55,730 nucleotides of DNA from the NCBI GenBank assembly GCA_934524965.1, contig CAKSYU010000009.1, forward strand, positions 1-55,730, in the 5' to 3' direction. Made by a program: the position numbers and the translations under genes. A model generated the notes under the pieces. That model was not told where the DNA came from. It searched no databases and was given only the letters and a program-made list of their open reading frames with translations. The stretch is from an uncultured Angelakisella sp. (GTDB lineage: Bacteria; Bacillota; Clostridia; Oscillospirales; Ruminococcaceae). Below are positions 1 to 53,587 of this stretch, in pieces. Each line of letters opens with the position of its first letter. Positions within the stretch are counted from its first letter, which is position 1.

Positions 1-71
<71 letters not shown>

Positions 72-830: not shown

Positions 831-1554
831 CGGAGCCTGCCGCGGCGAACAGGGCGAAAGAGGACCCGTCGGGGAACAGGGCATACAGGGCAAGGTAGGA
901 CCGCAGGGTGTGCAGGGCGACCGAGGCTGTCCGGGACCGCAGGGGGAACAGGGCATTCCGGGACTCAAGGGCGAAAAGGTAGACCGCGGTGAGCGCGGGG
1001 AACAGGGGATTCAAGGGGAAAAGGGCGAGACCGGTGAAACGCCGGAGATCACCGTGGCGGAGGATACCCCGCTGAGCTACAAGCTGCGCTTTAAGACCGC
1101 GGAGCAGTCGCTTACCACCCCCAATCTTTTTGCCCCGTTTACCGAGTACCACGCCGATCTTTCCGCAACGGGCAGTACCCTTGCCATGCCGCTGAAGGAT
1201 CTTGTTCTCACTTATCAAAACACCTCCTCCACGGCGCTGCACATCACCATTGCGCCGCGGGAAACCGGCGCCGCCGTGCTGGTAGATGCCCGCCGCACCG
1301 CCATCTATAACGGCAGCACGGTGGAAACCACCACCCTAAACGGCGCCTTAGTTTCGGCACGCACCGTGCTGGATGAGATCGTCTATACCGCCTCACAGGA
1401 GACCCACAGCATGGTGATCCGCCAGCAGGACCCTGCCACCAAGCTGTGGTCGCTGTGCGAGATCCATTCCTTCCTTTCCGCCGGCGGTGCGCGCTGCTCC
1501 GTCAGTATCCGGTGGAGCGAATACGAAGTCTCCTACGAAGTCCCCGCCGTGTAA
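811..1554 (+). pseudogene. Collagen-like surface protein, 5' truncated
   Basis: The frame encodes 22 consecutive Gly-X-Y-type triplets (844-1041) followed by a ~165-residue C-terminal domain. This layout is typical of bacterial collagen-like exosporium or surface proteins, whose triple-helical stalk carries a trimeric tip. No start codon with a ribosome binding site exists; the nearest in-frame candidate is GTG at 817, and the reading frame overlaps the end of the preceding remnant. One triplet reads VDR instead of GDR (a GTA for GGA change), which would interrupt a triple helix. The C-terminal domain is otherwise intact up to its TAA. It is most likely a decayed gene whose 5' end was lost; expression from a remote start is possible. 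Confidence 0.6.
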
Positions 1555-1658
1555 AAGAAAAAACTGTCCCGCTCCTGTCATGCCGCGGCGGGAACGGGTA
1601 CCCTTTTGCCTGCTTTTGTGGTATGATAGTGCCAGCAAGCCAAAGGAGGCAAAAAAGA

Positions 1659-1835
1659 ATGGAATTGGAAATTCTGCGCGAAGCCGCCGCACAGGTGGAA
1701 CAGCAGCTGGATATTGATAACATCACGGTGGAGCGGGCGGTCTTTGGACTGTTTTTCTCCGGCGTCAAGCTCTCCGCCCGTGCCATGCCGCTTTTCGGCA
1801 GGGTCGATTTTTCCCCCGCGGCGTGTTATAATTAA
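1659..1835 (+). pseudogene. Truncated DUF364/DUF4213-type protein, N-terminal 58 residues
   Basis: A good AAAGGAGG site at 1643-1650 precedes ATG 1659. The product begins MELEILREAAAQVEQQLD and contains ITVERAVFGLFFSGVKLS, which resembles the N-terminal DUF4213 module of DUF364 'putative heavy-metal chelation' proteins (family recalled, not searched). Those proteins are normally 230-260 residues. Here the frame stops after 58, and the homologous part ends near residue 48. The tail runs into the promoter of sdaAB. It is read as a gene truncated by deletion that still has an intact translation start; the short peptide may be made but is unlikely to be functional. Confidence 0.55.
1824..1832 (+). 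promoter_or_regulatory. Extended -10 promoter for sdaAB-sdaAA
   Basis: TG-T-TATAAT lies 33 bases before the sdaAB start. The -35 region (TCGATT at 1804) is poor, as expected for an extended -10 promoter. The GAAAGGAGAAA ribosome binding site follows before ATG 1865. Confidence 0.6.
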
Positions 1836-1864
1836 AAACAGAGCATCGGAAAGGAGAAACCCTC

Positions 1865-2548
1865 ATGTCTACCGGCATTTTTGATATTATCGGACCCAAT
1901 ATGATAGGCCCCTCCAGCTCCCACACGGCTGGGGCGCTGCGCATCGCCTACCTTGCGGGGCGGCTGATCCACGGCGGCGCCAAACGGGTGGAATTTACCC
2001 TGTACGGCTCCTTTGCCCACACCTATCGGGGGCACGGCACCGACAGGGCGCTGCTGGCGGGGGTCATGGGCTTTGCCCCCGATGACCGCCGCATCAAAAA
2101 CTCCTTCGAAATCGCGGAGGAACGGGGCTTGCAGTATCAGTTCCATATCGATACCATCACCGAGGTGGCGCACCCCAATACCGTCGGCATTCTGTTGGCG
2201 GGTGCCGATGGACACGAGGTGCATGTGACCGGCGTTTCGGTGGGGGGCGGCAGCGTGCGGCTTCGGGAGCTGGACGGCGTGGAGATCGACCTTTCCGGCG
2301 AATACGATACCATTGTGGTAAAGCAGTATGATAAGCCCGGTGTGGTGGCGTTCATCACCAAAACACTCAGCGAAAACGGCGTCAATATCGCCTTTATGCG
2401 GCTTTACCGTGAAAATCGCGGCAAGATCGCCTATACCATCGTGGAAGCTGACCAGCCCATTCACCGCGAAACGGTGCGGACGATTTTTGAGCACCCCGAT
2501 ATCGTTGCGGCAAGACGCATCACCCCAAGGGAGGAGACCGACCGATGA
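1865..2548 (+). CDS. sdaAB: L-serine dehydratase, beta subunit
   Basis: This is the beta subunit of the two-subunit, iron-sulfur L-serine ammonia-lyase that converts serine to pyruvate and ammonia in the cytoplasm. The 227-residue product starts with MSTGIFDIIGPNMIGPSSSH; the GPSSSHTAGA motif at residues 15-24 is typical of the family. An ACT-type domain (from about residue 147, with YDKPGVVAFITKTLSENGVN) closes the protein and probably senses an amino acid. The start has a GAAAGGAG site 6-8 bases upstream. The stop overlaps the sdaAA start as ATGA, so the two subunits are translationally coupled. Length and order match the Bacillus/Clostridium type enzyme. Confidence 0.95.
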   Translation: MSTGIFDIIGPNMIGPSSSHTAGALRIAYLAGRLIHGGAKRVEFTLYGSFAHTYRGHGTDRALLAGVMGFAPDDRRIKNSFEIAEERGLQYQFHIDTITEVAHPNTVGILLAGADGHEVHVTGVSVGGGSVRLRELDGVEIDLSGEYDTIVVKQYDKPGVVAFITKTLSENGVNIAFMRLYRENRGKIAYTIVEADQPIHRETVRTIFEHPDIVAARRITPREETDR

Positions 2549-3444
2549 AAACCAATACCACCACCGCCGCAAAGCTCTTAGCCGCCGTGCGGCAGGAAAA
2601 CCTTACACTGCCGCAGGTCATGCTGCGGCGGGAGCAGGAACAAAATGAGACCCCACCGGAAACGGTTTACGAAAAGCTGGGTGCTGCCTATGCCATTATG
2701 CGGCAGGCGGTAGAGGAAAGCCTGAAGGAGCCGCACCAAACGATGGGCGGTCTCATCGGCGGCGAAGCCATCAAGCTGCGGGAATACCGGCGGCAGGGCA
2801 AAAACCTCTGCGGCGAGACGGTTTCCCGCGCTATCTGCTACGCCATGGGCGTTCTGGAGGTCAGTGCCTCAATGGGACTCATCGTGGCGGCGCCGACGGC
2901 AGGCGCTTCCGGTGTGCTGCCGGGGGTGCTTATCGCCCTGCAGCAGCAGTATGACCTGCCGGAGCGGGAGATGCTGGACGCCCTGCTGGTGGCTTCCGCC
3001 ATCGGCGTGGTGGTGGCGGAAAACGCCGGCATCAGCGGGGCGGCGGGCGGCTGTCAGGCGGAGGTAGGCACCGCCAGTGCCATGGCGGCGGGCGCCGCCG
3101 TTTATCTGCGGGGCGGCACCCCGGAGGATTGCTTTGCCGCCGCGGGACTGGCGATCCAGAATATGCTGGGGCTGGTGTGCGACCCCATCGCCGGCTTGGT
3201 GGAGGCGCCCTGCCAGGCACGCAACGCCGCGGGAGCCTCCAATGCCCTTGTTTCCGCCGAGCTGGTGCTGGCGGGCGTGCCGGAGGTCATTCCCTTTGAC
3301 GAGGTGGTGGAGGCGATGCGGCAGGTGGGCAGCGCCCTGCCGGAAAGTCTGCGGGAGACCGCATTGGGCGGCATTGCCGCGACGCCCACTGCCGGAAAGC
3401 TGGCGCAAAAGACCGGCTGCGGCAGCTGCCGTGGCTGCGGCTGA
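2545..3444 (+). CDS. sdaAA: L-serine dehydratase, alpha subunit (4Fe-4S)
   Basis: This is the catalytic alpha subunit, 299 residues, coupled to sdaAB by a 4-base overlap. The core holds VAAPTAGASGVLPG, the glycine-rich substrate loop, and LVCDPIAGLVEAPCQARN, which carries cysteines used by this family for the oxygen-sensitive [4Fe-4S] cluster. The C-terminus KTGCGSCRGCG is rich in cysteine, as in homologues from anaerobes. Together with SdaAB it deaminates L-serine to pyruvate, feeding amino-acid fermentation. No terminator is obvious directly downstream; a separate promoter follows for the next gene. Confidence 0.95.
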   Translation: MKTNTTTAAKLLAAVRQENLTLPQVMLRREQEQNETPPETVYEKLGAAYAIMRQAVEESLKEPHQTMGGLIGGEAIKLREYRRQGKNLCGETVSRAICYAMGVLEVSASMGLIVAAPTAGASGVLPGVLIALQQQYDLPEREMLDALLVASAIGVVVAENAGISGAAGGCQAEVGTASAMAAGAAVYLRGGTPEDCFAAAGLAIQNMLGLVCDPIAGLVEAPCQARNAAGASNALVSAELVLAGVPEVIPFDEVVEAMRQVGSALPESLRETALGGIAATPTAGKLAQKTGCGSCRGCG

Positions 3445-3544
3445 AAATAGCCAGAACGCCGCAGAATATCCAGTAAAAGCGGGGCAATTTGCCCGCGACC
3501 GGAAAACAATTCGTAAACGGTTTGTAAATTCTGTGCCGCTGTTC

Positions 3545-3573
3545 TTGCAGTTTTTATCCGGTTCGGCTATGAT
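3545..3573 (+). promoter_or_regulatory. Sigma-A promoter for zinc-ribbon protein gene
   Basis: TTGCAG (3545-3550), a 17-base spacer and TATGAT (3568-3573) lie about 40 bases before the start codon at 3615. Confidence 0.7.
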
Positions 3574-3614
3574 ATACTACAGTTACAAAAATGAACCGGA
3601 AAGGGGAGCAGAAT

Positions 3615-4007
3615 ATGCGGGATTGGTTTCGCCGGCTGATGATGGGGCGCTACGGAGTAGACCAGCTGACCTGGGTGCTGCTGGTGCTGTCGCTCATTCT
3701 TTCGCTGTGCGGCGGCATTTTCCGCTCCAATGTTCTGCGCATTCTGTGCTGGGCAGTGCTTATCGTGTGCTATCTGCGCATCTTTTCCCGCAATATTTAC
3801 GCCCGCCAACAGGAAAACCAGAAGCTGCTGCAATTCTGGTGGAAGCTGAAAAACGGCAAGGCGAACCGCCCTACCCGTGAGCAGCGCAAAAACTACAAGG
3901 TTTTCAGCTGCCCCACCTGCAAGCAGAAGCTGCGGGTACCGCGCGGCAAAGGTAAGATCAGTATCAGCTGCCCCAAATGCGGGACGAGCTTCATCAAGAA
4001 AACTTAA
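3615..4007 (+). CDS. Two-TM protein with C-terminal zinc ribbon
   Basis: The start at 3615 (MRDWFRRLMMGRYGVDQLTW) is chosen over an ATG at 3591 because AAGGGGAGC sits just before it. The 130-residue product has two adjacent membrane segments (about residues 15-33 and 36-54) and a basic linker. It ends in a zinc ribbon of the CPTC...CPKC type (CPTCKQKLRVPRGKG and ISCPKCGTSF). Such zinc ribbons are common at the ends of small bacterial membrane proteins of unknown role. The likely topology is both termini in the cytoplasm with the ribbon inside. No partner gene is adjacent: sdaAA lies upstream behind its own promoter and a terminator follows. Function unknown. Confidence 0.8.
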   Translation: MRDWFRRLMMGRYGVDQLTWVLLVLSLILSLCGGIFRSNVLRILCWAVLIVCYLRIFSRNIYARQQENQKLLQFWWKLKNGKANRPTREQRKNYKVFSCPTCKQKLRVPRGKGKISISCPKCGTSFIKKT

Positions 4008-4010
4008 AGG

Positions 4011-4038
4011 AAAAGGGCTTCCATGGGGGCTCTTTTTT
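4011..4038 (+). terminator. Rho-independent terminator
   Basis: An 11-12 bp stem, AAAAGGGCTTCC with GGGGGCTCTTTT including G-T wobbles, runs into a six-T run directly after the zinc-ribbon gene. Confidence 0.7.
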
Positions 4039-4438
4039 GTTGCCCCTCGCGGGCGGGGGCAGGTGCGCGGGCGCGCGTGTGATAACTATTCTGTTTTCAA
4101 GGTGCAGTTGAGTAAGCCCCCAATTTATCGAGGGGGCTTAGGTTAGCGGCTGACCCCCTGTTTCTCGTTGAGGGTCGGTCGCATTTTCTTATTTATCGTT
4201 AACGATGAGAAGTCCTCTCACTAATACGGACAAAAACGGGGAAATTTGCAGTGAAAGTGTTGAATTCGCACAAAGTTTCATAAAAAGTTTACGGGTTTGG
4301 GAAATGGTGGGAGGTTTGGGGGCGTAAAAAGCCCCCTCGCCCTTTAGGGGAGGGGGTTGGGGGTGGGGTGCGGACTTGTTTTCAAATGGATATTGCAAAC
4401 AGCAAGAAGGACTTGCAGCATAAGGGGCGACTGACTGC
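4039..4438. other. Gene-free stretch with several palindromes
   Basis: No gene is seen. The stretch holds a hairpin TAAGCCCCC/GGGGGCTTA (4113-4140) and a perfect 12-bp palindrome ATCGTTAACGAT (4195-4206). It also has a pyrimidine/purine hairpin near 4332-4352 (GCCCCCTCGCCC...GGGGAGGGGG). On the reverse strand at about 4086-4105, GCACCTTGAAAACAGAATAG resembles the box upstream of Clostridia 16S/23S rRNA genes, but no rRNA gene is present. Confidence 0.4.
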
Positions 4439-4773
4439 AAAGTATTAGCCCACTAATGGCATAGTCCCCCTCCTTTGAGGAGGGGAGAGGGGTGGTGGTT
4501 CGCCCTTCGCGCTCCAGCGCGCGGGCGATAAAAATGCGTCGCAGACACTTTTTGAGCGCATCTGCGCGCAGTACGGATTTGTTTTTCTGTGCCAGCAGAA
4601 AAACAATATCCGTATCCAGCGCAGCCAAGCGATGCGGGTTTTTAGGGCAGCAGCCCTAAAACGCTTTTGGGTACTTTTGGCGGGTCAAAAGTACCACCCC
4701 CGCCGGTAGGCGGAGATACAGACTAAGCTATAATTAAAACTTTGCCCCGCCGACAGGCGAGATGGGACTAAGT
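4439..4773 (+). repeat. Long structured intergenic repeat, copy A
   Basis: This is one of three related ~300-bp non-coding elements in the window (B at 26774, C at 30244), all in the same orientation. Shared blocks in order are: CCCCTCC...GGAGGGG, GGTGGTGGTTCGCC, a short GC hairpin with loop CTCCA, the block ATAAAAATGCGTCGCAGAC, a central module, a T/C-rich hairpin closing AGGGC/GCCCT, GGTACTTTTGGCGGG...CAAAAGTACC, and CCGCCGGTAGGCGG...AGGCGAGA. In copy A the central module is a different long hairpin (about 4569-4616) from that in B and C. It lies between two convergent genes. Confidence 0.85.
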
Positions 4774-4781
4774 CATAGAAC

Positions 4782-4825
4782 GGGTCGCGGTGCGCGGGTG
4801 CGGGAGATAGATTTTCCGAGAGGAA
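4782..4825 (+). repeat. Satellite module of the long repeat (A')
   Basis: GGTCGCGGTGCGCGGGTGCG followed by GGAGATAGATTTTCCGAG closely matches 30188-30230, which lies just before copy C rather than after it. It is therefore a separate module that travels with the long repeat in either position. Confidence 0.6.
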
Positions 4826-4859
4826 ACAAAAAGAAAAGAGCTGCCCCGCAGGACAGCTC
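4825..4859 (-). terminator. Terminator of phospho-sugar mutase gene
   Basis: On the reverse strand, GAGCTGTCC and GGGCAGCTC pair around TGCG and run into TTTTCTTTTTG, 24 bases after the stop codon. Confidence 0.8.
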
Positions 4860-4882
4860 CTTGAAAGAACAGAAATATGCTG

Positions 4883-6595
4883 TTACAGCCCCAGCCAGCT
4901 TTCCACCGAGGATCGGATCTCGCTGTAGGCGGTCTGTGCCTCGGCGCGGTCGGAAGCGCGCAGAGAATAGTAGAATTTGAGCTTCGGCTCGGTGCCGCTG
5001 GGACGGGCAACGAGACTGCCCTCCTTGCCAAAGCGGAATTCCATGACATTGGAGGCGGGAAGTCCGGTGGGGGTCTCTCCCTCGCCGTCCTCATAGCGCA
5101 GCCCTGCCTCGTAATCGGTGTGACCGGTAACGGCGCGGCTGCCGATGACAAAGGGCAGCTCGGTACGCAGCTTCTGCATCAGCGCCGCCATCTTCTCCAT
5201 GCCGTCGCTGCCGGGGAAGGTGTAGCTATCCACCTTGTTGAAGTAGTAGCCGTACTGCGCGTACAGGTCGTCCAGCGCCTCGCCCAGGTTCTTGCCCTGC
5301 CCCTTGTACCATGCCGCCATTTCACAGATGAGCATGGAAGCCACTACGGCGTCCTTATCCCGGACATAACCGCCGGAAAGGTAGCCGTAGCTTTCCTCAA
5401 AGCCGAAGAGGAAGCGCTCGGGGTGACCCTCGGCTTCCAGATGGGCGATCTGCTCGCCGATGTACTTAAAGCCGGTGAGCACCTGCCGCATCTCCACGCC
5501 GTAGTGGGCGGCGACGGCGTCGCTCATGGTGGTGGAAACGATGCTGCGCACCGCCACGGGGTTTTCCGGCATCTTGTGAAGCTCCAGACGGGTGCGGCAG
5601 ATATAATCCAGCAGCAGCACGCCCATCTCGTTGCCGGAGATGAGGCGCGGCGCACCGTTTTGCAGCACAGCGGTGCCGACGCGGTCACTATCGGGATCGG
5701 TGGCGAGCAGCAGATCGGCGCCCAGCTTTTCGCAAAGGTTCAGCCCCAGCTGCATCGCTTCCAGAATTTCGGGATTGGGGTAGGGACAGGTGGGAAAGTC
5801 GCCGTCGGGCTTTTCCTGCTCCGGCACCACGGTGATATCGGTGTGACCCATGCGCTTCAGGACGGTCATCACCGGCACCAGACCGGAGCCGTTGAGGGGA
5901 GTATAGACCAGCCGCAGCCCGGCAGTCTTGCCCAGCTCCGGACGCAGCGCCTGCGCCATTACTGCGGCATAGTAGCGCTCAATGAGGGCATTGTCAATGT
6001 ATTCGATGGTGCCGGCGGCAAGCGCTTCCTCAAAATCCACCAGCTTTACGTCATCAAAAATATCGGTCTTTTCGATCTCGGCGGAAACGGCGGCTGCCAC
6101 CTCGCCGGAGATCTGCGCGCCATCGGCGGCGTAAGCCTTATAGCCGTTGTAGCGGGCGGGGTTGTGGCTGGCAGTGACCATCACGCCGCCCTCGCAGCGG
6201 CGGTCCAGCACCGCAAAAGACAGGGCGGGGGTGGGCATCAGGTGGGGATAAAGATAGACCTTGATGCCGTTGGCGGCAAGCACCCGTGCCGTTTCCCGTG
6301 CAAAAACATCGCTTTTGTGACGGCTGTCGTAGGAGATGGCGGCGCTTGGGGTCTTATTCTGGGTCAGCAAATAAGCGGCAAAGCCTTGCGTTGCCTGTCG
6401 GACGGTGTAGATGTTCATACGGTTGGTGCCGGCACCCAACTCACCGCGCAGCCCGCCGGTGCCGAATTCCAGCGAGCGGTAAAAACGCTCATGCACCTCT
6501 TTTTCCTCATTGCGGATTGAGAGCAGCTCGGCGGAAAGCTCGGGGTCGGTGACCTCCTCCAGCCAGCGGCGCAGCTCGGTCTGTTCCTTACTCAT
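4883..6595 (-). CDS. pgcA: Phosphoglucomutase/phosphomannomutase (phospho-sugar mutase)
   Basis: This cytoplasmic enzyme of the alpha-D-phosphohexomutase family interconverts sugar 1- and 6-phosphates, supplying glucose-1-phosphate for cell-surface glycolipid and polysaccharide synthesis. The 570-residue length matches Bacillus PgcA. Visible motifs are the phosphoserine loop TASHNP (catalytic Ser about residue 143), the metal loop TDPDSDR near residue 300, the sugar-binding FGFEESYGY and the C-terminal phosphate-binding RPSGTEPKLK. The start at 6595 is preferred over an ATG two codons upstream because it sits 8 bases from GAAAGGAG. A strong sigma-A promoter precedes it and a terminator follows, so it is monocistronic. 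Confidence 0.93.
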   Translation of the reverse strand: MSKEQTELRRWLEEVTDPELSAELLSIRNEEKEVHERFYRSLEFGTGGLRGELGAGTNRMNIYTVRQATQGFAAYLLTQNKTPSAAISYDSRHKSDVFARETARVLAANGIKVYLYPHLMPTPALSFAVLDRRCEGGVMVTASHNPARYNGYKAYAADGAQISGEVAAAVSAEIEKTDIFDDVKLVDFEEALAAGTIEYIDNALIERYYAAVMAQALRPELGKTAGLRLVYTPLNGSGLVPVMTVLKRMGHTDITVVPEQEKPDGDFPTCPYPNPEILEAMQLGLNLCEKLGADLLLATDPDSDRVGTAVLQNGAPRLISGNEMGVLLLDYICRTRLELHKMPENPVAVRSIVSTTMSDAVAAHYGVEMRQVLTGFKYIGEQIAHLEAEGHPERFLFGFEESYGYLSGGYVRDKDAVVASMLICEMAAWYKGQGKNLGEALDDLYAQYGYYFNKVDSYTFPGSDGMEKMAALMQKLRTELPFVIGSRAVTGHTDYEAGLRYEDGEGETPTGLPASNVMEFRFGKEGSLVARPSGTEPKLKFYYSLRASDRAEAQTAYSEIRSSVESWLGL

Positions 6596-33707: not shown

Positions 33708-34121
33708 GTGCATATCACACTGGAATCCGACTATGCGGTACGGATCGTTTACTGCCTGGCGCAGAACGGCGGACGAATGGAGGCGGCAGCCATTGCCGAG
33801 CAGACCGGCGTGACGCTGCGGTTTTCGCTGAAGATCCTGCGGAAGCTGGTGGCGGGCGAGCTGGTAAAAAGCTATAAGGGCGCCGGCGGCGGCTATGAGC
33901 TGGCGAAGGACCCGAAGGACATCTCGCTGTACGAGGTGATAGAGCAGGTGGAGGGACCGTATGCCATCAGCCGGTGCCTGAACGAGGACGACTACACCTG
34001 CAACCGCAACCGGCAGGCGTGCATGGTGTGCAAATTCAGCCGCATCTACGCGGATATTTCCGAGATGGTGCGGGAGAAGCTGGAGGGCATCAAGTTTGGC
34101 GACCTGCTGGACGAGCCGTGA
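33708..34121 (+). CDS. Rrf2 family transcription regulator with cysteine cluster
   Basis: The 137-residue product is a winged-helix Rrf2 protein (ESDYAVRIVYCLAQNGG, LRFSLKILRKLVAGELVKSY, GAGGGYELAKDPKDISLYEV). Near the C-terminus, Cys90, Cys98, Cys105 and Cys108 could bind an Fe-S cluster, as in IscR, NsrR and RsrR, so it may sense iron-sulfur status, oxygen or NO. It starts with GTG, 15 bases after rpoD and preceded by AAAGGGAGGGAGAA, so it is probably in the dnaG-rpoD transcript. Target genes are unknown; a cysteine desulfurase gene lies 6 kb away. Confidence 0.87.
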   Translation: MHITLESDYAVRIVYCLAQNGGRMEAAAIAEQTGVTLRFSLKILRKLVAGELVKSYKGAGGGYELAKDPKDISLYEVIEQVEGPYAISRCLNEDDYTCNRNRQACMVCKFSRIYADISEMVREKLEGIKFGDLLDEP

Positions 34122-34319: not shown

Positions 34320-37300
34320 TCAGCCGGTGGGGAGGACGATGACGCCGCCGCCGGAGGACTGCTGCTTATCCTTGATCGCCTGATCGAGCGCGGCATTGGT
34401 GGGATACTGAGAGGGATCGATATCCAGACCTCTCGCGGTCTCCTCCAGATTGGCGCGAATGGCGCGCAGCTCGCTGAGCTTGCTGGCAATGGAGGACGCA
34501 TCGGAATTCTGGAGCGACGCGGCAGCATCGGGATCCAGTACGCGGATAGCCTCAAGATTTTCCTGACGCTGTGCCTCCGCCTTCTTCTGCTGCAGCTCCT
34601 GCTTTTTAGCGGTGAGCTGGTCGAGCGTCATGGCGTTGAGGGCGCTTTCATCCACGCTTTCGCCCAGCTCCGCCGCCAGTGCCTTGATATCGCTGATGAG
34701 GGTGGCACGCAGCGTTGCCTGATCGGCGAGCTGCGCCTTGATGGCTTTCAGCTCGTCGAGGGTCTTATTCTGCAGCTCGCTTTCAGAGGGGTGTCCCTCC
34801 ATGGCGAGGATCTCCTTGATGAGAGCCTCGCGCTGACCCTTCTGCTTCTCATTGATGATCTGCTGAAGGGCGGAGTTGCTGGGATACTTCTTGATCTCAT
34901 CACTGGTCATGCCAGCGGCTTTTGCCGCGGCCTCCAGCGTGGCGCGCTCCTGCTGGAGCGTGGCGAGCAGGGCTTTCAGCTCATCGAGGGTCATATCGGT
35001 GAGGGCGGTGCCGTTGGCGCCGGTGGCACTGGGATTGAGCACCTTGATGGCTTCGATGGTCTTATTGATCTCGCCCTGGTTCTTCTTCTTATCCACCGCC
35101 TTCTTGAGGTCGGCAAGGCTCAGCTTATCCATCTCCGCCTGGGTAAGACCGGCGGCGAGACCCTCGGCCTCCAGTGCCTTACGGGTGGCTTCCGCCTTGG
35201 TGACGGCTTCGGAGAGCTTCTCCCAGGTCTCGTACTGGGCGATCTGTTCCTCGGTGAGGTACTTCTTGGCTTTCTGCTGGTTGGTCTCGAAGAGCTTTTG
35301 CAGCTTTTCACCGTCGATCTTTTCGAGGTCGCGGACATCCTTGACCGAGAGGTACAGCTTCCAGGTCTTCTTTTCCTTGCTGAGCAGCTTGTAGCGCGGC
35401 TCGAGCTGCGCCCACTTGGTGGCGAAGAGGGTCTTATCGCTGAACAGCGGGACATCCTTCTGATCCTCGAAATCCACCTTCTGCTGCAGGACATTCAGAC
35501 GCTCCTGGCAGAGGGCGAGCTTCTTGCTGGCGGTGTTCTGCTCCTCCTCGGTCTGCGTCAGCAGCATGACAAAGAGCTTCTTGCGGTACTCGATGAGCGC
35601 CTTGATGGTCTCCGGCGTGCGGTCCTCGGCGGAAAGTTCCTCCGCGGTGAGGCAGCGCTCGGCCTGCGCCGCGCGCTCCTGCGCCTTGGCGTACAGCTCG
35701 GCAGTGGTCAGGGTGGTATCGGCAGCCTCCTCCTCGGTGAGCCACAGGGCGATGTAAGCCTTCTGCTCCTTTTCCAGCTCCTCCGCAGCCTTCTTATCCT
35801 GCTGCTTCTTGATGTAATCGTACCACTGCTGCGGCATGACCGGATTGGGATTGAGGGTGGCGGCATTGACATTGACGGTCTCGCTTTCGCCATCGCGCAC
35901 CGCGCGGGCAAACACGACCAGACGGGCAATGAGCTTATTGGTATCGGGATCGCGGAAGGTGTAATCGCAGGTGGAGAGGGTGAGCAGACGGTCGCTCGCC
36001 TTGACATCTACGGTAGTTTTGATGATGGAGCGCTCCATGATCTTTTCGATGTACTCATTCTTGGCGGCATCGCTGTCGCTGTCGATGAAATTGTGGTAGT
36101 CGAAATCGGGGTCATCGGCTTTGCAGACGACAACGGCAAAGATCTTGTACATATCCTTGCGGTAGACGCTGTTGTAGCTGATGAGCGGGTGCTGCTGGTA
36201 GTAGCTGAGCTTACGGTACGCCTGCAGGTAACCAAACATGGTGCCATCGCCCATATTGTGACCATAGATGACGGTATTGTAGGAGGGCTTTTCCTGATCG
36301 ACGCGGAAATCGACATAGGGAATGCCCCAGTCGTTCTTCTTGAGGTCGATATCGGTGCGGTGATACTTATCGTTATCCTCCGCCTGCATGACGGCGTAAT
36401 CCAGCTTGGTATCGGGGATCTTGACCCAGCCGGCGATATCGGGATTGCGCTTATACAGTGCCTCGAAGCCCGCGATGTAGTTGCTGGGGTAGCCGTCCTT
36501 ATCCGTGGCGCTGGTATTGGTGGCGTCGGGATCGTAGAGGTTCGCCAGCTCATCGGAGAGCTTGCCGTTATTGATAGACTGCATCTTGTTGCCCAGAATG
36601 TAGATGAGCGAAGCGGCAAATACCACCACGCACAGACCGAGCGCCGCAATGCGGATCTTGTCGCTCTTGGTGAGCGCTTTCATCTTGATGCGCTGAATGA
36701 GGTTGGTACCCCTGACCGCCTCGGCACTGGGTTCCGCGGCAGCGGGGCGGGGGGCTTTGGTGCGGGTTTTCTTTTCCATAGCGGGTTTTGGTTCCTTTCC
36801 GGCGGTATTTGCGGGGGATTTGACGGTGTGGGCGCCGCGGGCAAAGAGTGAGCCGAGCCCCGCGCGCTTTTCCAGCTCGGCGGGTTCGATGCCGCCGGGG
36901 AGCTGCTTGGGATACTGAGCGGTGTAGAGCCGCAGGACGTTCATCGCCTGCCAGACGGCGATCTGGGGGGTATCCTCCCGCCGAAGCTCCGCGACGGAGA
37001 GACGGCGGTTCCAGACACGGTTTTTATCTGCCAGCGCGACATGCAGCAGCCCGCTGCCCGCCTGACAGTAGACGCCGAGACCCAAAGCGGTGCGTCCGGC
37101 ACGGCGGCTTTGCTGCGCCAGAAGCCCGGCGATGAGGGCGGCGTTTTCCGACGGCTCCTGTAAGAGACGGCGGGGAAGCTCCAGCTCCTGCCCGATGTGG
37201 GTATCATTGTAGGCGGCGCGGTAGCAGCCATCGGCGCCGATGACGGCGGAAAGCTGCTGCCGCAGCAGGTCGCCTGTGCCCCATTCGGCGGTGGCAAGGG

Positions 37301-38108
37301 TGAGCCCGTGGCGGGTCAGCCCATCGACGACAATCTGCGGGAGGGGACGGCTGCCGATGCAGTAGAGGTAAATGCCGAAGGTCTGCTGCATATGACTGAT
37401 CGCCCGCTGCAGGTAGTCATCGGCTTCCGCCTGATCGGCGCCGGTGGCTTCGATATTGATCTCGTAATCGCCGCACTGGTGGCGGGAGGTGAGCTTTAAG
37501 TGGGGGTTCTGGCTGAGGCGGGTGATCTCCTGCGGCACCGAGAACTGATCCAGCTCCAGCACGCGCACGGTGCCGTAGCTTGCCGCCAGCCCCGCCAGCT
37601 TGCCCAGCAGGGGGCGCACCGAAGAGGGATAGAGGGCGGAAAGCTCGCCGGGGAGGGCGGGCAGCGCCATTAAAAGCTGCCGGCGCGCGGCGATGGCGTA
37701 GCCCTGCACCAGACCCTGCGCGTTGGGCAGCAGGGTGGCGCCCGACGGGAACGAGGAAAAATCCGCGAGCTGCTCGTAGCTGAGGGTAAGCCCCATGCGG
37801 GCGGCGCGGGCTTCCAGCTGCTTTTGCAGGGCGGCATCGGTGGCGACGGAGCGCTCCAGCCCGCCGCAGACGACCCGCAACGCCGTGGAAACGGCGGCAG
37901 GCTCCGGAGAGAGCAGCAGGATAAGCGTCTCGCTTTGGCTCATCGCCTGACGCATGGCGGCAAACAGCTCGGTGGTTTCCGGACGACAGATGGCATAGGA
38001 AAGCTCCGCCGAAAGGGAAGCGGTCTCTTTCTTCAGGTACTGGTAGGCGGTATCAAAGGTGGGCTGACACTGCGCCTCGCTGCCTACGGCAAGAATGGTG
38101 ATCTTCAT
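34320..38108 (-). CDS. CinA-like domain fused to a class B sortase and helical repeats
   Basis: The 1262-residue product has three parts. Residues 1-405 align by eye with a whole CinA protein: FPSGATLLPNAQGLVQGYAI with the MoCF-like half and LTRHGLTLATAEWGTGDLL with the C-terminal half. The usual ESCTGG is changed to EWGTGD and the GGLGPTxDD motif is lost, so it is probably not catalytic. After a basic linker, a membrane helix (about 487-508) leads to a class B sortase with His617 (YGHN), Cys714 (LSTCDYTF) and Arg729. Residues 760-1262 are Lys/Glu/Ala-rich helices with repeated MTLDELKAL and YPSNxAL-like units, ending GGVIVLPTG. The sortase would attach proteins to the wall, with the CinA part inside the cell. 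AGGAGG lies 14 bases before ATG, which is long. No related gene is adjacent. Confidence 0.85.
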   Translation of the reverse strand: MKITILAVGSEAQCQPTFDTAYQYLKKETASLSAELSYAICRPETTELFAAMRQAMSQSETLILLLSPEPAAVSTALRVVCGGLERSVATDAALQKQLEARAARMGLTLSYEQLADFSSFPSGATLLPNAQGLVQGYAIAARRQLLMALPALPGELSALYPSSVRPLLGKLAGLAASYGTVRVLELDQFSVPQEITRLSQNPHLKLTSRHQCGDYEINIEATGADQAEADDYLQRAISHMQQTFGIYLYCIGSRPLPQIVVDGLTRHGLTLATAEWGTGDLLRQQLSAVIGADGCYRAAYNDTHIGQELELPRRLLQEPSENAALIAGLLAQQSRRAGRTALGLGVYCQAGSGLLHVALADKNRVWNRRLSVAELRREDTPQIAVWQAMNVLRLYTAQYPKQLPGGIEPAELEKRAGLGSLFARGAHTVKSPANTAGKEPKPAMEKKTRTKAPRPAAAEPSAEAVRGTNLIQRIKMKALTKSDKIRIAALGLCVVVFAASLIYILGNKMQSINNGKLSDELANLYDPDATNTSATDKDGYPSNYIAGFEALYKRNPDIAGWVKIPDTKLDYAVMQAEDNDKYHRTDIDLKKNDWGIPYVDFRVDQEKPSYNTVIYGHNMGDGTMFGYLQAYRKLSYYQQHPLISYNSVYRKDMYKIFAVVVCKADDPDFDYHNFIDSDSDAAKNEYIEKIMERSIIKTTVDVKASDRLLTLSTCDYTFRDPDTNKLIARLVVFARAVRDGESETVNVNAATLNPNPVMPQQWYDYIKKQQDKKAAEELEKEQKAYIALWLTEEEAADTTLTTAELYAKAQERAAQAERCLTAEELSAEDRTPETIKALIEYRKKLFVMLLTQTEEEQNTASKKLALCQERLNVLQQKVDFEDQKDVPLFSDKTLFATKWAQLEPRYKLLSKEKKTWKLYLSVKDVRDLEKIDGEKLQKLFETNQQKAKKYLTEEQIAQYETWEKLSEAVTKAEATRKALEAEGLAAGLTQAEMDKLSLADLKKAVDKKKNQGEINKTIEAIKVLNPSATGANGTALTDMTLDELKALLATLQQERATLEAAAKAAGMTSDEIKKYPSNSALQQIINEKQKGQREALIKEILAMEGHPSESELQNKTLDELKAIKAQLADQATLRATLISDIKALAAELGESVDESALNAMTLDQLTAKKQELQQKKAEAQRQENLEAIRVLDPDAAASLQNSDASSIASKLSELRAIRANLEETARGLDIDPSQYPTNAALDQAIKDKQQSSGGGVIVLPTG

Positions 38109-38249: not shown

Positions 38250-39425
38250 TCAGTAACGGATAATGACCAGCTCCGCCTCGTCCGCGGCTTGCTGAACCAG
38301 CTCCGCGGGGATCGCCATTTCCGCTTCGATGGCTTCCACGGCGGCGACGGTGGGCTTGGTCTTGGGGTGGCGGGGGGTAAAGACGGTGCAGCAGTCCTCG
38401 TAGGGGAGAATGGAGGTCTCGAAGGTCTCGATCTTGCGGCTGAGACGGACGATCTCCTCCTTATCCATGCCGATGCAGGGGCGCAGCACAGGCAGCCGGC
38501 AGGCAAGGTCGGTGCAGCCGATCGCCTGCATGGTCTGGCTGGCGACCTGCCCCAGACTTTCGCCGGTGACAAGGGCGCCGCAGCCCTCCCGCAGGGCGAT
38601 CATCTCCGCGACGCGCATCATGTAGCGGCGCATGAGAATGGTGAAGTAATCCTCCGGACAGCGCTCCCGCAGAAGCTCCTGTAATTTGGTGAACGGGACG
38701 ACGAACAGCCGGATACGACCGGTGTAGGGGGTCAGCTCCTGCGCGAGATCCAGCACCTTTTGACGGGCGCGGTCGCTGGTGTAGGGCGGGGAGGCAAAGT
38801 GGACGGCGGCGATCTCCAGACCGCGCTTTGCCATCATGTAGCCCGCGACGGGGCTATCGATGCCGCCGGACAGCAGCAGCATGGCGCGTCCGCCGGTGCC
38901 GACGGGGATCCCGCCCGCTCCGGGGAGCTGGTCGGCGTGAATGTAAGCGCCCTGCTCACGGATCTCGACGGTGATGGTGATCTCCGGCTGCTCCACCTTG
39001 ACCTTGAGGTGGTGGAAACGGGAGAGGAGATATCCGCCCAGCTCGCGGCTGATCTCGGGGCTTTTCATCGGGAAGGACTTATCGCTGCGCTTTGCCTCCA
39101 CCTTAAAGGTGCGGGCGGCGGAAAGCTGGGCGGCAAAATATTCCGCGGCGGCGGGGCAGATGACGGAGAAATCCTTTTCCACCACGCAGCTTTTGGTGAC
39201 GGCGACGATGCCGAATACCGTTTGCAGGCGGCGCACCGCTTCGTCCATATCCACACCCTCGGTAAGGGGCTGGACATAGGTGGTGGACTGGGCGTGCCAG
39301 ATCTTGAACTCGCCCAGAGGCTGGAGGCGGCGGCGGGCGTTTTTCGCCATGATGTCCTCGAAGGTGCTGCGGTTGAGACCCTTGAGGGCGATCTCGCCGC
39401 TTTTAAGCAGAATGATCTCTTTCAT
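38250..39425 (-). CDS. thiI: tRNA 4-thiouridine synthetase (sulfurtransferase)
   Basis: The 391-residue product has the N-terminal ferredoxin-like and THUMP domains (to about residue 165) and the PP-loop ATPase (LLSGGIDSPVAGYMMAKRG). It ends at RRSWSLS-less Bacillus-type length, without the C-terminal rhodanese domain of the E. coli enzyme. It activates U8 of tRNA and receives sulfur from a dedicated cysteine desulfurase. That partner is encoded 14 bases upstream, matching the nifZ-thiI pairing of Bacillus. The start follows ATAAGGAG. Sulfur transfer to thiamin precursors is also possible. Confidence 0.93.
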   Translation of the reverse strand: MKEIILLKSGEIALKGLNRSTFEDIMAKNARRRLQPLGEFKIWHAQSTTYVQPLTEGVDMDEAVRRLQTVFGIVAVTKSCVVEKDFSVICPAAAEYFAAQLSAARTFKVEAKRSDKSFPMKSPEISRELGGYLLSRFHHLKVKVEQPEITITVEIREQGAYIHADQLPGAGGIPVGTGGRAMLLLSGGIDSPVAGYMMAKRGLEIAAVHFASPPYTSDRARQKVLDLAQELTPYTGRIRLFVVPFTKLQELLRERCPEDYFTILMRRYMMRVAEMIALREGCGALVTGESLGQVASQTMQAIGCTDLACRLPVLRPCIGMDKEEIVRLSRKIETFETSILPYEDCCTVFTPRHPKTKPTVAAVEAIEAEMAIPAELVQQAADEAELVIIRY

Positions 39426-39439
39426 GCGGGGGATACTCC

Positions 39440-40576
39440 TTATCTTCGTTTGGTGAGGGTGGCTTCGCCCTCCAGCAGACGGCGGCAGAACTCATCGATC
39501 TCCGCCGGTGTGGTGGTATCGGTCATGCTGAGGCGAATGGCGGAATCGATGCGGTCGTGGGAGAAGCCCATGGCGGTGAGCACATGGCTGCGCTCCCCCT
39601 TGGCACAGGCGGAGCCGCTGGACACATAGACGCCGAACTGCTCCAGATAGTGGATCATGACCTCACTGCGGATACCCTGCACCGAACAGTTGACAATATA
39701 AGGTGCGGCATCGGCGGGGGAATTGATGCAGACGGCAGGCGATTGTGATAAATTTGTAATCATCTGACGGCGCAGGGCGGTAAAATGGGCAAAATTTTCC
39801 GCGCGGCGGTCGTTCATCAGCTTGGCAGCCAGCCCCATGGCGCAGATGCCGGGGACATTCTCGGTGCCGGGACGCAGACCCCTTTCCTGACCGGAGCCGA
39901 AGATGGGCGGCACCAGACGGGTACTCTTTGCCACATACAGGGCGCCGACCCCCTTGGGGGCGTGGATCTTGTGACCGCTGACGCTGACCAGCTGCACGCC
40001 CCACTTTGCCGGTTCGATGGGCAGGCGGCAGAATGCCTGTACGCAGTCGCTGTGGAAGATGAGCGACGGGCTGATCCGACGGCAGGCGGCGGCGATGGCG
40101 GGGATATCGTGAACGGCGCCCGTTTCGCTGTTGACCATCATGCAGGAGACGAGAATGGTCTTCTCGTTGCAGGCGGCAGCCATGGCGGCGGGGGTGATGT
40201 GCCCGCTTTCATCGGGGGAGACGGTGACGACCTCGAAGCCTTCGGCTTCCAGCGCCTTGCAGATGGCAAGCACCGAGTGGTGCTCCACGGCGGTGGTGAC
40301 GATGCGGTTGCCCCGACGCTTCATGGCGTGGGCGGCGCCCAGCAGGGCGATATTATTGCTTTCTGTCCCGCCGGAGGTGAAGATGACCTCCTCCGCGCGG
40401 CAGTGCAGCACCTCCGCGACCTGCCCGCGCGCCTCGGTCATGGCACGCTCCGCCAGAAAGCCCCGACGGTGCAGTGAGGAGGGATTGCCGAACTCCTCGC
40501 ACATCATGTGCAGGGCGCAGGCGGCAACGGGCGGTGTAACGGCGGTGGTGGCGCTGTTATCCAGATAACATTCCAA
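39440..40576 (-). CDS. Cysteine desulfurase (NifS/IscS-like)
   Basis: The 378-residue PLP enzyme takes sulfur from cysteine as a persulfide. It has YLDNSATTAV at the N-terminus, FTSGGTESNN (PLP phosphate site), the lysine motif SVSGHKIHAPKGVGALY and the catalytic cysteine in VSSGSACAKGERSHVL. The short loop around this Cys fits partners of ThiI such as Bacillus NifZ. The start is TTG at 40574-40576, 11 bases after AGGGAGG; an ATG nearby is out of frame. It is the first gene of a two-gene operon with thiI. Confidence 0.92.
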   Translation of the reverse strand: MECYLDNSATTAVTPPVAACALHMMCEEFGNPSSLHRRGFLAERAMTEARGQVAEVLHCRAEEVIFTSGGTESNNIALLGAAHAMKRRGNRIVTTAVEHHSVLAICKALEAEGFEVVTVSPDESGHITPAAMAAACNEKTILVSCMMVNSETGAVHDIPAIAAACRRISPSLIFHSDCVQAFCRLPIEPAKWGVQLVSVSGHKIHAPKGVGALYVAKSTRLVPPIFGSGQERGLRPGTENVPGICAMGLAAKLMNDRRAENFAHFTALRRQMITNLSQSPAVCINSPADAAPYIVNCSVQGIRSEVMIHYLEQFGVYVSSGSACAKGERSHVLTAMGFSHDRIDSAIRLSMTDTTTPAEIDEFCRRLLEGEATLTKRR

Positions 40577-48379: not shown

Positions 48380-48645
48380 AAAATAAAAAAGCCCGCCGTT
48401 TTTCCCGATACGGGAAAACAGCAGGACGCAATATCGGCGCGGTACCACCTGAATTCGTGCCGGAAGGCACGCACTTTAGCTCCCGTAACGGGGAATACCG
48501 TTGCCGCTTAAAAAATATTCGGCGGCACCGCTCGGCGGCGACTTTCTCCGTTTTCCGCCGCAGCCTTTACACCGGTCGGCTGCTCTCTGGGGGTCGGGGG
48601 GAACGGGTACTCCTCCGCTTCAAAGCGTTTTTTGTTATCCTCGCT
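48380..48645 (-). promoter_or_regulatory. T-box riboswitch of valS
   Basis: On the reverse strand, the 5' part has GCGGAGGAGTA (stem I bulge) and AGAGAG-like distal loop sequence. Then comes the T-box AGGTGGTACCGCG (complement of 48438-48450), which binds the tRNA ACCA end. The competing terminator GTCCTGC...GGGAAAA...CGGCGGGC with a T-run is at 48381-48428. GTC near 48540-48542 is a plausible valine specifier codon, but the fold was not computed. Confidence 0.88.
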
Positions 48646-50598: not shown

Positions 50599-50618
50599 GA
50601 ACACGCAAAAAAGCGCTG

Positions 50619-50754
50619 TTTCTTCCATCCGGACTGTGACCGTCGGTGAGGGAATCGCACCCTCTCGGCAGCGCCGTGGCACTGTTCGCGGACTGGGGAG
50701 CCGATGGGCTCCGTCACCGCCGGTGGGGAATTGCACCCCGCCCCGAAACATCTT
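50619..50754 (-). promoter_or_regulatory. FMN riboswitch (RFN element)
   Basis: The reverse strand shows the conserved RFN blocks in order: TTCGGGGCGGGGTGCAATTC, CCCACCGGCGGT, CAGTCCGCGA, GAGGGTGCGATTCCCTCACC, GACGGTCACAGTCCGGATGG and AAGAAACA. It senses FMN and controls ribU and the kinase, most likely through the following terminator. Confidence 0.97.
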
Positions 50755-51436: not shown

Positions 51437-53530
51437 TTATTCCGCCGCGGCTGCTTTCAGCTTGCGGTTATGGAGAAGCTGCGTGACAAACGGGATGCCG
51501 ATGAGCAGCAGCCCGATGAGGTCGCTGACGGGACTGGGATCAATAAGGAAGATCCCACCGGCCAGCAACATGATGCGCATGAACCACGGAATGGGAGCAT
51601 AGGCGTGTCCGGTCATGCCCATGGCGATGCCCGCCATGCCGATGACCGAGGTGACCATAATGCCGATAAGCGCCCAGACACTCTCCACATCAATAAACAG
51701 CAGGCTGGGATTGAGGGCGAAGATGTATGGTATAATGAATGCGCCAATGGCAAGCTTGGTGGCAGTTACGCCGGTTTTGAGCGGATTGGAATGGGCGATG
51801 GCGCTGCCTGCATAGGCGGCAAGCGCTACAGGCGGGGTGATATCCGCCACGATGCCGAAGTAGAATACGAACATGTGCGCCGCTAACAGCGGGATTCCCA
51901 TTTTGACAAGGATCGGCGCCGTGATGGTCGCCATGATGACATAGTTGGCGGTGGTGGGTACGCCCATGCCCAGCACAATGCATGCCAGCATGGTACAGAA
52001 CAGCGCAAGGAAGATGCTCTTTTGGGCGAGGGGGACAATGACCGCTACCAGCGTGGTGCCCAACGCTGTCATGGAGACAACGCCGGAGATGATACCTGCC
52101 ATGGCGCAGGCCACCGCAACGCCGATGGAACTGCCGGCGCCGCCCTGCAGGCCCTCTGCGACCAGATGTGGGGAGAGGATTGCGGAACGGGAAAGGAAGC
52201 TGCAGAGCACGGCGACCACCATCGAGACAAAGACAGCGGTACCGGTATCTATCTTGATGACCTGCCACAGAATGATGAGGGTTGCCAGCGGGATCAGCGG
52301 CAGACCGACAGAACGCACAAGATCATGTTTATCCTTCCCAATGAGGCTGATGATGAGGGCAAACAGTATGGCAAAGCAGGCGGACATACCGGCGGTGTAA
52401 TAATTCATGCAGATGACCAGCACGACGACCGGAATGAGCAGGTAGCCGCTTTTTCCCAGCAGGCGGAAGAAATGGGGAATGGAGTCCTTGGGAAGACCCT
52501 TAAGACCCAGCCGCTTGCCCTCGAAATGGACCATCAGGAAGATGCCGGTAAAGTACAGAACGGCGGGGAGGATTGCCGCAACGACAATGGAAGCGTAAGG
52601 TATGCCGGTGATCTCCGCCATCAAAAAGGCGGCAGCGCCCATAATGGGCGGCATGATCTGACCGCCGGTCGAGGCAGCCGCCTCCACTGCCGCAGCAAAT
52701 TCCGGCTTGTAGCCTACCCGCTTCATGGTGGGAATGGTGATGCTGCCGCTGCCGACGGTATTGGCAACGGAGGAGCCGGAATACATTCCCTCCAAAGCGC
52801 TGGAGATGACCGCGACCTTGGCAGGACCGCCCACGCTGGCGCCCGCGATGGAGTTTGCCAAATCCACAAAGAAGGTACCGATTCCGGTCTTTTCGAGGAA
52901 CGAGCCGAGAATGATGAACAGCACGATGAACGAACAGCAGACGGTGATGGGGGAGGAAAAAATGCCGCAATTGAGGTTATAAAACAGGTTGTAGATGAGG
53001 TTGCGCAGGGCAGTTTTGGGGTTGTTGTTGGTCAGCCACCATGCCCCGTAAACGGTAAACAGTCCCACCACCACAATGAGCGGGATCCCGGTGGAACGGC
53101 GGCACAGCTCCACCAGCAGCAGAATACCGATAATGCCCAGTACGATCTGAGTGGTGCCGATGCGGTTTGCCATCTGAATGATCTTTTTTTGAGCGAAGGC
53201 ATAATAGAAAAACACAATGAGCGAGGCAAACGCCAGCACAATATCATACCACGGGAAATAGTTATCCCGCAGGGCGTCCCGCTTGCTGGCAGGGTACTTC
53301 AGGTAGCCCACAAACAGCGTCATGCCCACAAAAACGGGCAGACGGGTATACTGCGTTGCGCCGGAGACGACCAGCGCCATGACGATCATGGTGACGGAAT
53401 ACAGGACAAACAGTACCGTCATGGCGGTTTTCCAGCCGCCGGTCAGGCTGCGGCTTTTGCTGTCACGGTCCAGCTCCTGCAGCAGCTTGGCGGTATCGGC
53501 GGCATCGGAATGGTGATGCAGATGATTCAT
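51437..53530 (-). CDS. TRAP transporter permease, fused small and large subunits
   Basis: The 697-residue membrane protein has about 17-18 hydrophobic segments. The first four to five form the DctQ-like part (to about residue 170) and the rest the DctM-like ion-coupled part (GGPAKVAVISSALEGMYSGSS, GGQIMPPIMGAAAFLMAEIT, and a second half with VVSMTALGTTLVA and GMGVPTTANYVIMATI). This 4TM/12TM fusion is typical of TAXI-type TRAP transporters, driven by a sodium or proton gradient. The start follows AAAGAAAGGAAGC. The binding protein gene lies upstream, with a partial terminator between them. Confidence 0.94.
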   Translation of the reverse strand: MNHLHHHSDAADTAKLLQELDRDSKSRSLTGGWKTAMTVLFVLYSVTMIVMALVVSGATQYTRLPVFVGMTLFVGYLKYPASKRDALRDNYFPWYDIVLAFASLIVFFYYAFAQKKIIQMANRIGTTQIVLGIIGILLLVELCRRSTGIPLIVVVGLFTVYGAWWLTNNNPKTALRNLIYNLFYNLNCGIFSSPITVCCSFIVLFIILGSFLEKTGIGTFFVDLANSIAGASVGGPAKVAVISSALEGMYSGSSVANTVGSGSITIPTMKRVGYKPEFAAAVEAAASTGGQIMPPIMGAAAFLMAEITGIPYASIVVAAILPAVLYFTGIFLMVHFEGKRLGLKGLPKDSIPHFFRLLGKSGYLLIPVVVLVICMNYYTAGMSACFAILFALIISLIGKDKHDLVRSVGLPLIPLATLIILWQVIKIDTGTAVFVSMVVAVLCSFLSRSAILSPHLVAEGLQGGAGSSIGVAVACAMAGIISGVVSMTALGTTLVAVIVPLAQKSIFLALFCTMLACIVLGMGVPTTANYVIMATITAPILVKMGIPLLAAHMFVFYFGIVADITPPVALAAYAGSAIAHSNPLKTGVTATKLAIGAFIIPYIFALNPSLLFIDVESVWALIGIMVTSVIGMAGIAMGMTGHAYAPIPWFMRIMLLAGGIFLIDPSPVSDLIGLLLIGIPFVTQLLHNRKLKAAAAE

Positions 53531-53587
53531 AGGGCAGCTTCCTTTCTTTAGGGAATTTTTACCGGATCACAAAAGGGGAGCGGCAGC

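Follow-up and report, generated by a model that had tools for sequence, protein, structure and literature searches.

The window analysed here, a stretch of 55,730 nucleotides from an uncultured Angelakisella sp. (contig CAKSYU010000009.1), carries one uninterrupted gene of 1262 codons in which a CinA-like region (residues 1-405) is joined through a linker and a membrane helix to a class B sortase with His617, Cys714 and Arg729, followed by a tail of about 500 residues predicted to be mostly helical; this layout, proposed in an earlier note made from the sequence, is borne out. We read the CinA-derived part as a retained cytoplasmic pseudoenzyme module, its activity being judged from its residues. 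The account as a whole, i.e., fusion of neighbouring genes, loss of catalysis and retention of a non-catalytic cytoplasmic module for the sortase, is one that we hold with moderate confidence. What computation shows in its favour is the fusion itself, the predicted fold, the missing catalytic residues, a gene order in common, the intermediate states and the purifying selection seen in relatives.

The predicted model of residues 1-405 is confident and, compared with solved CinA, has the CinA fold over its whole length, as the earlier note led one to expect. The protein scores 97.9 bits against the bifunctional CinA family NF001813, below the cutoff of 379, and 159.6 bits against the class B sortase family TIGR03064, above the cutoff of 153.75. 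His617, Cys714 and Arg729, the catalytic trio of sortases, sit in motifs aligned with solved SrtB and are invariant in the homologue alignment. A basic stretch precedes the lone membrane helix (residues 484-506) in the sequence prediction, and the CinA-like part would lie on the cytoplasmic side with the sortase outside. For the C-terminal half, overall model confidence is low (predicted template modelling score 0.37); the structure matches listed for this half are sortases, with none to the helical tail, and residues 746-1262 match no Pfam family. The last part of this region evolves fast. A crude pattern scan of the window for a sorting-signal substrate returned one weak match (51440-53566), though substrates may be encoded outside it, and both sigma-70 pattern matches upstream of the fused gene are on the opposite strand.

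Residue roles in CinA were taken from the Thermus CinA paper (PMC4246079) and placed by alignment; canonical denotes the residue of the intact L010 protein, and 15 active-site residues were inspected. The window protein has four of the 15 left (canonical Glu12, Glu156, Gly284 and Tyr296), and Asp45, Asp76, Glu187, Ser286, Lys301 and Thr340 are all replaced. Among the Mg2+ ligands, Asp45 has become Pro and Asp76 Ser, with Glu12 retained; in the nicotinamide mononucleotide (NMN) deamidase site, Lys301 is Ile and Thr340 is Tyr. The PncC-like domain reads EWGTGD in place of ESCTGG, the altered signature pointed out in the earlier note, and the TGxAGP loop is deleted. Because the Mg2+ ligands and Lys301/Thr340 are lost, both CinA activities are argued against. 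The losses extend to relatives: at least one of Glu12, Asp45 and Asp76 is replaced in 30 of the 31 eroded full-span fusions (L118 is unaligned there), and Lys301, which 17 of the 22 eroded loci and P0104 still have, occurs in none of the eight window-clade rows.

Some of the domain has been kept. Glu156 of Thermus CinA binds the terminal ribose (PMC4246079), and the ribose-contacting Glu, Glu155 in the window protein, is present in 30 of the 31 eroded full-span fusions, L118 being the exception. When 15 intact and 18 eroded sequences are compared, 19 canonical invariant positions are kept, 63 are lost, and at five a different residue has become conserved; N129, G132, G136, L149, P150, P153 and E155 are still conserved in eroded CinA, canonical Pro135 has become a clade-conserved Gln, and newly conserved V134, Q135 and Y137 flank the kept G136 to form a VQGY block. 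Of seven dead-domain segments compared within the clade, 118-172 has the highest conservation (mean top frequency 0.66). The kept Glu155 and the new VQGY block would fit a remodelled pocket; a dimerisation or docking role would explain the same facts.

The fusion recurs across many independent assemblies, and an artefact of assembly or gene calling that joined two genes, to which we give next to no credence, is rejected. A protein database search with the window protein found 103 proteins, 97 of which exceed 1100 residues and align over both the CinA and the sortase parts; with the window protein, these make up a 98-row alignment (P0102 and the five shorter proteins P0093, P0094, P0095, P0097 and P0103 left out). 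In a section-wise comparison of the 97, the group-mean aligned fraction is 0.99-1.00 in both CinA sections and 1.00 in the sortase, P0002 (99% identical) being excluded from the means. The same fusion, which the earlier note had suggested seeking in related genomes, is found in many assemblies: of 396 genomes from the family to which Angelakisella massiliensis belongs, at least 38 have a stop-free match spanning both parts (query start ≤160, end ≥700), and one fusion lies on a 2.99 Mb contig of Angelakisella massiliensis. What speaks for an artefact are the separate adjoining cinA and srtB genes of L009, L010, L027 and L110. The earlier note had taken two separate genes in related genomes as a sign of a fusion made by assembly; such genes do exist in these loci, but they are true neighbours there and do not point to a fusion made by assembly in the window.

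Among named organisms, Angelakisella and other Oscillospiraceae come closest, with about 36-42% identity across the CinA and sortase parts; no close relative of the window turned up in the named genome collection. Among 394 genomes of the order, only short matches (22-86 bases in the query) were found besides the Angelakisella locus G003, so that there was no window-clade DNA for the codon or Shine-Dalgarno tests below. A more sensitive profile finds a CinA-like frame in 14 of 80 named-collection loci (L001-L007, L009, L010, L011, L017, L027, L040, L072) and none in the remainder, which are mostly Lachnospiraceae sortases; L008, though negative by this profile, has a COG1058-like remnant. The frames of L017 and L040 are unfused and PncC-like, within the sortase locus, L040 also having a thiI-like frame, and L072 carries a separate unfused CinA on the other strand of the sortase locus.

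The window gene order is nifS-thiI-fusion. Both nifS and thiI lie upstream in all 12 named-collection loci inspected (L001-L011, L027), and thiI is present in 19 of 24 shorter loci (L096, L099, L101-L122; L119 repeats L008); it was not seen at L096, L102, L104, L110 and L114, of which L096 and L110 start near the edge of their stretch. Related loci fall into four states. In the first, a separate intact cinA directly precedes srtB, the two touching or overlapping in L009, L010 and L027 and divided by stops in L110. The second is a fusion with intact CinA, all 15 residues present (L108, L112, L115, L116, L120). The third comprises eroded fusions, i.e., 22 loci with 1 to 9 of the 15 canonical residues and, in the database, nine proteins including that of the window with 3 to 5. 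In the fourth, CinA is partial: only the PncC part remains in L011, and a COG1058-like remnant precedes the sortase in L008/L119, G124, G183 and the second copies of G222 and G319. Duplicates occur as well. In L102, the fused gene (1327-4671) is directly followed by a closely related second sortase frame (4820-5569), a tandem copy; contig C1 of G222 has, at about 65.1-72.0 kb, two sortase fusions on opposite strands within a few kb, one with a near-full CinA-like part and the other with a COG1058-like part only.

A second CinA was sought in 35 genomes, picked as best matches to the window protein. The fused intact copy is the only CinA found in all five state-2 genomes (G195, G117, G012, G115, G253), and a separate intact CinA scores above the cutoff in 20 of the 23 genomes with a full-span eroded fusion, G222 being counted as eroded by score only. 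Likewise, a separate CinA occurs in G008, G124 and G183, the three genomes whose only fusion is partial, and in each of the four with a separate cinA-srtB pair (G009, G010, G011, G119) that CinA stands alone. For 0/5 against 20/23, Fisher's test gives p = 5.7e-4, a descriptive value since the genomes are related. Of the 31 eroded sequences, nine were selected for the CinA tree, where a branch with support 95/96 sets them apart from the other rows; six of the separate second CinAs group as a clade (97/99). The sortase tree comprises 65 rows, including every fifth of the CinA-free loci L012-L080, and was built by a quick method with long branches flagged.

The dead CinA domain is under purifying selection in relatives, and the constraint is mostly looser than on the sortase. 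Against 87 homologues at 71-82% identity, the CinA part is 79% identical with an aligned fraction of 1.00, the linker 50% and the sortase 93%. The codon test concerns relatives of the window clade, not the window clade itself. In six pairs of relatives that share members, the eroded CinA part has ratios of nonsynonymous to synonymous substitution rates (dN/dS) of 0.12, 0.21, 0.39, 0.54, 0.45 and 0.28; the same pairs give 0.02-0.23 for the sortase and 0.15-0.84 for the linker, and in L007/L099 CinA and sortase are alike (0.21 and 0.20). A seventh eroded pair, L111/L121, gives 0.11 with dS near-saturated, and the intact fused pair L108/L120 gives 0.09, also near saturation.

The linker holds a candidate internal start. 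Met444 is kept in 94 of the 98 aligned proteins, G437 in 92 and K438 in 94, and the next position is Glu or Asp in 91 (GK[E/D] at 437-439); the residues between this motif and Met444 vary by subgroup. In ten window-plus-Angelakisella genes, a Shine-Dalgarno-like motif precedes 9 of the 20 ATGs in the linker and 12 of the 187 elsewhere (p = 1.6e-5), and a linker ATG so preceded and in frame is present in every gene but L005; six of these nine sites read AAGGA-N10-ATG, and that of the window AAGGA-N13-ATG. Synonymous redraws recreate the combination in 49-87% of draws in nine of the ten genes, so the motif can be explained by the Lys-Glu residues alone. None of 22 linker ATGs in the other 18 fused genes has the motif, and when duplex energies were compared across all fused genes, linker ATGs did not stand out (≤-6 in 15% of 46 linker ATGs and 14% of 533 others). 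It is suggestive only that this site and Met444 may also yield a short sortase. One database protein, P0095, has the 819 residues expected for a Met444 product, yet begins at Met1 and stops early. P0097, a 46-sequence cluster, starts with MKGTNLIQR just ahead of the membrane helix and lacks the CinA part; gene truncation, a variant start or an effect of contig ends may lie behind it.

In the account that we favour, adjoining cinA and srtB would have fused within a gene row, nifS-thiI-cinA-srtB, that related Clostridia have. In the window lineage, both catalytic sites would then have been lost from the fused CinA, probably once the enzymatic work fell to an intact CinA encoded elsewhere; what remains would be a folded, catalytically dead CinA module, presumably cytoplasmic, attached to a class B sortase that spans the membrane once. 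Both the crystal and size exclusion show Thermus CinA as a dimer (PMC4246079), and because of this dimerising or positioning the sortase is the simplest role that the module could have retained, and most likely its function; it could be tuned by a ribose-containing ligand in a remodelled COG1058 pocket. Several points weigh against this account. The 35 genomes are relatives selected by best match, with the window's own genome outside the sample; G006, G043 and G044 yielded no separate intact CinA, perhaps through incompleteness; and the Fisher p-value ignores shared ancestry. The sortase tree groups the eroded fusions and cannot fix a single origin of the fusion. Finally, CinA evolves clearly faster (0.28-0.54) than the sortase (0.17-0.23) in four of the five Angelakisella-type pairs besides L003/L005, which fits relaxed constraint.

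The dead CinA could instead be a ligand sensor, an idea that goes back to the earlier note; in the cytoplasm it would bind a nucleotide, adenosine diphosphate (ADP)-ribose or a ligand resembling nicotinamide adenine dinucleotide and gate the external sortase through the membrane helix. This reading, possible but doubtful, draws on the ribose-binding Glu kept throughout nearly all eroded fusions, on the conserved N129-E155 positions with the Pro135-to-Gln switch beside V134 and Y137, and on the conservation of segment 118-172; the window has nevertheless lost Asp45, Asp76, Lys301 and Thr340, conserved Gly, Pro and Glu can be structural, and we know of no signal route through a single helix in the CinA-sortase family. 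A combined version, in which sortase activity or position depends on a pyridine or adenine nucleotide bound by the dead CinA while the Met444 start provides a second, unregulated short sortase, seems unlikely. Were the CinA part a tolerated leader and the short sortase from Met444 the true product, the conservation of Met444 and GK[E/D] and the enrichment of Shine-Dalgarno-like motifs at linker ATGs would be accounted for; such a passive relic is disfavoured because the CinA part, aligned over its full length, is under selection (dN/dS below 1 in relatives), and the redraws, the 0/22 count and the null duplex-energy test also tell against it, so that we rate it a slim prospect. Slimmer still is the chance that the CinA part is an enzyme, either retaining one of its activities or having acquired another through different residues. 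The confident CinA model, the retained pocket residues and Lys301 in most eroded loci would suit it, but it is disfavoured because catalytic residues are lost: Glu12, Asp45 or Asp76 in 30 of 31 eroded fusions and, in the window, Lys301, Thr340 and the TGxAGP loop.

A phage origin was considered and rejected: 21 phage records match, the best covers 22% of the query, and the matches listed fall in the sortase region only. In P0102, the sortase domain breaks off midway and runs into a different part with PF00395, an S-layer homology domain; this protein may be a recombinant or an assembly chimera. Coordinates are collected in the table.

Features of the fused gene, its neighbours and the rest of the window
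Feature	Position	Strand	Remark
Fused cinA-like::srtB gene	34320..38108	minus	1262 residues; stop codon within span
COG1058/MoCF-like domain	37593..38108	minus	residues 1-172; boundary approximate
KH-like domain	37359..37592	minus	residues 173-250; boundaries approximate, placed by position relative to solved CinA
PncC/NMN-deamidase-like domain	36894..37358	minus	residues 251-405
Linker	36660..36893	minus	residues 406-483; variable up to about 465
AAGGA, Shine-Dalgarno-like, hypothetical internal ribosome site	36793..36797	minus	13 nucleotides before internal ATG
In-frame ATG of Met444, possible internal start of free-standing sortase	36777..36779	minus	
Single membrane helix	36591..36659	minus	residues 484-506
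Class B sortase domain	35874..36488	minus	residues 541-745; His617, Cys714, Arg729
C-terminal region	34323..35873	minus	residues 746-1262; predicted mostly helical
thiI	38250..39425	minus	upstream neighbour of fused gene in most related loci
nifS-type cysteine desulfurase	39440..40576	minus	upstream of thiI
Rrf2-family regulator	33708..34121	plus	after dnaG and rpoD; convergent with end of fused gene
T-box leader	48419..48632	minus	upstream end of valS
Flavin mononucleotide riboswitch aptamer	50613..50754	minus	
tRNA	1..68	plus	cut by window edge; seen by Rfam, not by ARAGORN

The earlier note knew of no description of such an architecture, and none of the papers listed by the literature searches, which leave most subscription papers uncovered, describes a CinA-sortase fusion. 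The architecture is already in databases, where many members carry precomputed Pfam domains for both parts. To our knowledge, sortases generally count as enzymes of the cell surface that have no control domain inside the cell; the CinA-sortase family would give a sortase a large cytoplasmic domain of metabolic origin, and its living intermediates trace a path with separate genes at the start, an intact fusion midway and a dead domain at the end. How fusion gives rise to a pseudoenzyme, and whether metabolism might control surface anchoring, are both directly testable in gut-type bacteria.

Among known systems, bifunctional CinA (Thermus thermophilus, 4ct8; Streptococcus mutans, 6mr3) has the COG1058-KH-PncC domain order and the whole-length fold in common with the window protein, in which both active sites are lost and a linker and membrane helix lead on to a sortase. 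Class B sortases (Staphylococcus aureus SrtB, 1qwz/4lfd; Bacillus anthracis SrtB, 2oqw) have the same His, Cys and Arg and, as predicted for the window protein too, a single membrane helix on the N-terminal side. Unlike them, the window protein has about 480 residues ahead of its helix, and its sortase domain is followed by about 500 residues that are mostly helical by prediction. Flavin adenine dinucleotide (FAD) synthase works in soluble nucleotide metabolism and has neither the membrane helix nor the surface enzyme of the window protein. In animals and plants it likewise joins COG1058 to another protein (PMC3680494; human FAD synthase, 8ron); that paper, from which the word sortase is absent, gives stand-alone, PncC-fused and FAD-synthase-fused forms of COG1058. 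The closest parallel is provided by the fused-intact CinA-sortases of state 2, which have the same architecture behind thiI; unlike the window protein, they keep all 15 active-site residues and are the only CinA found in their genomes.

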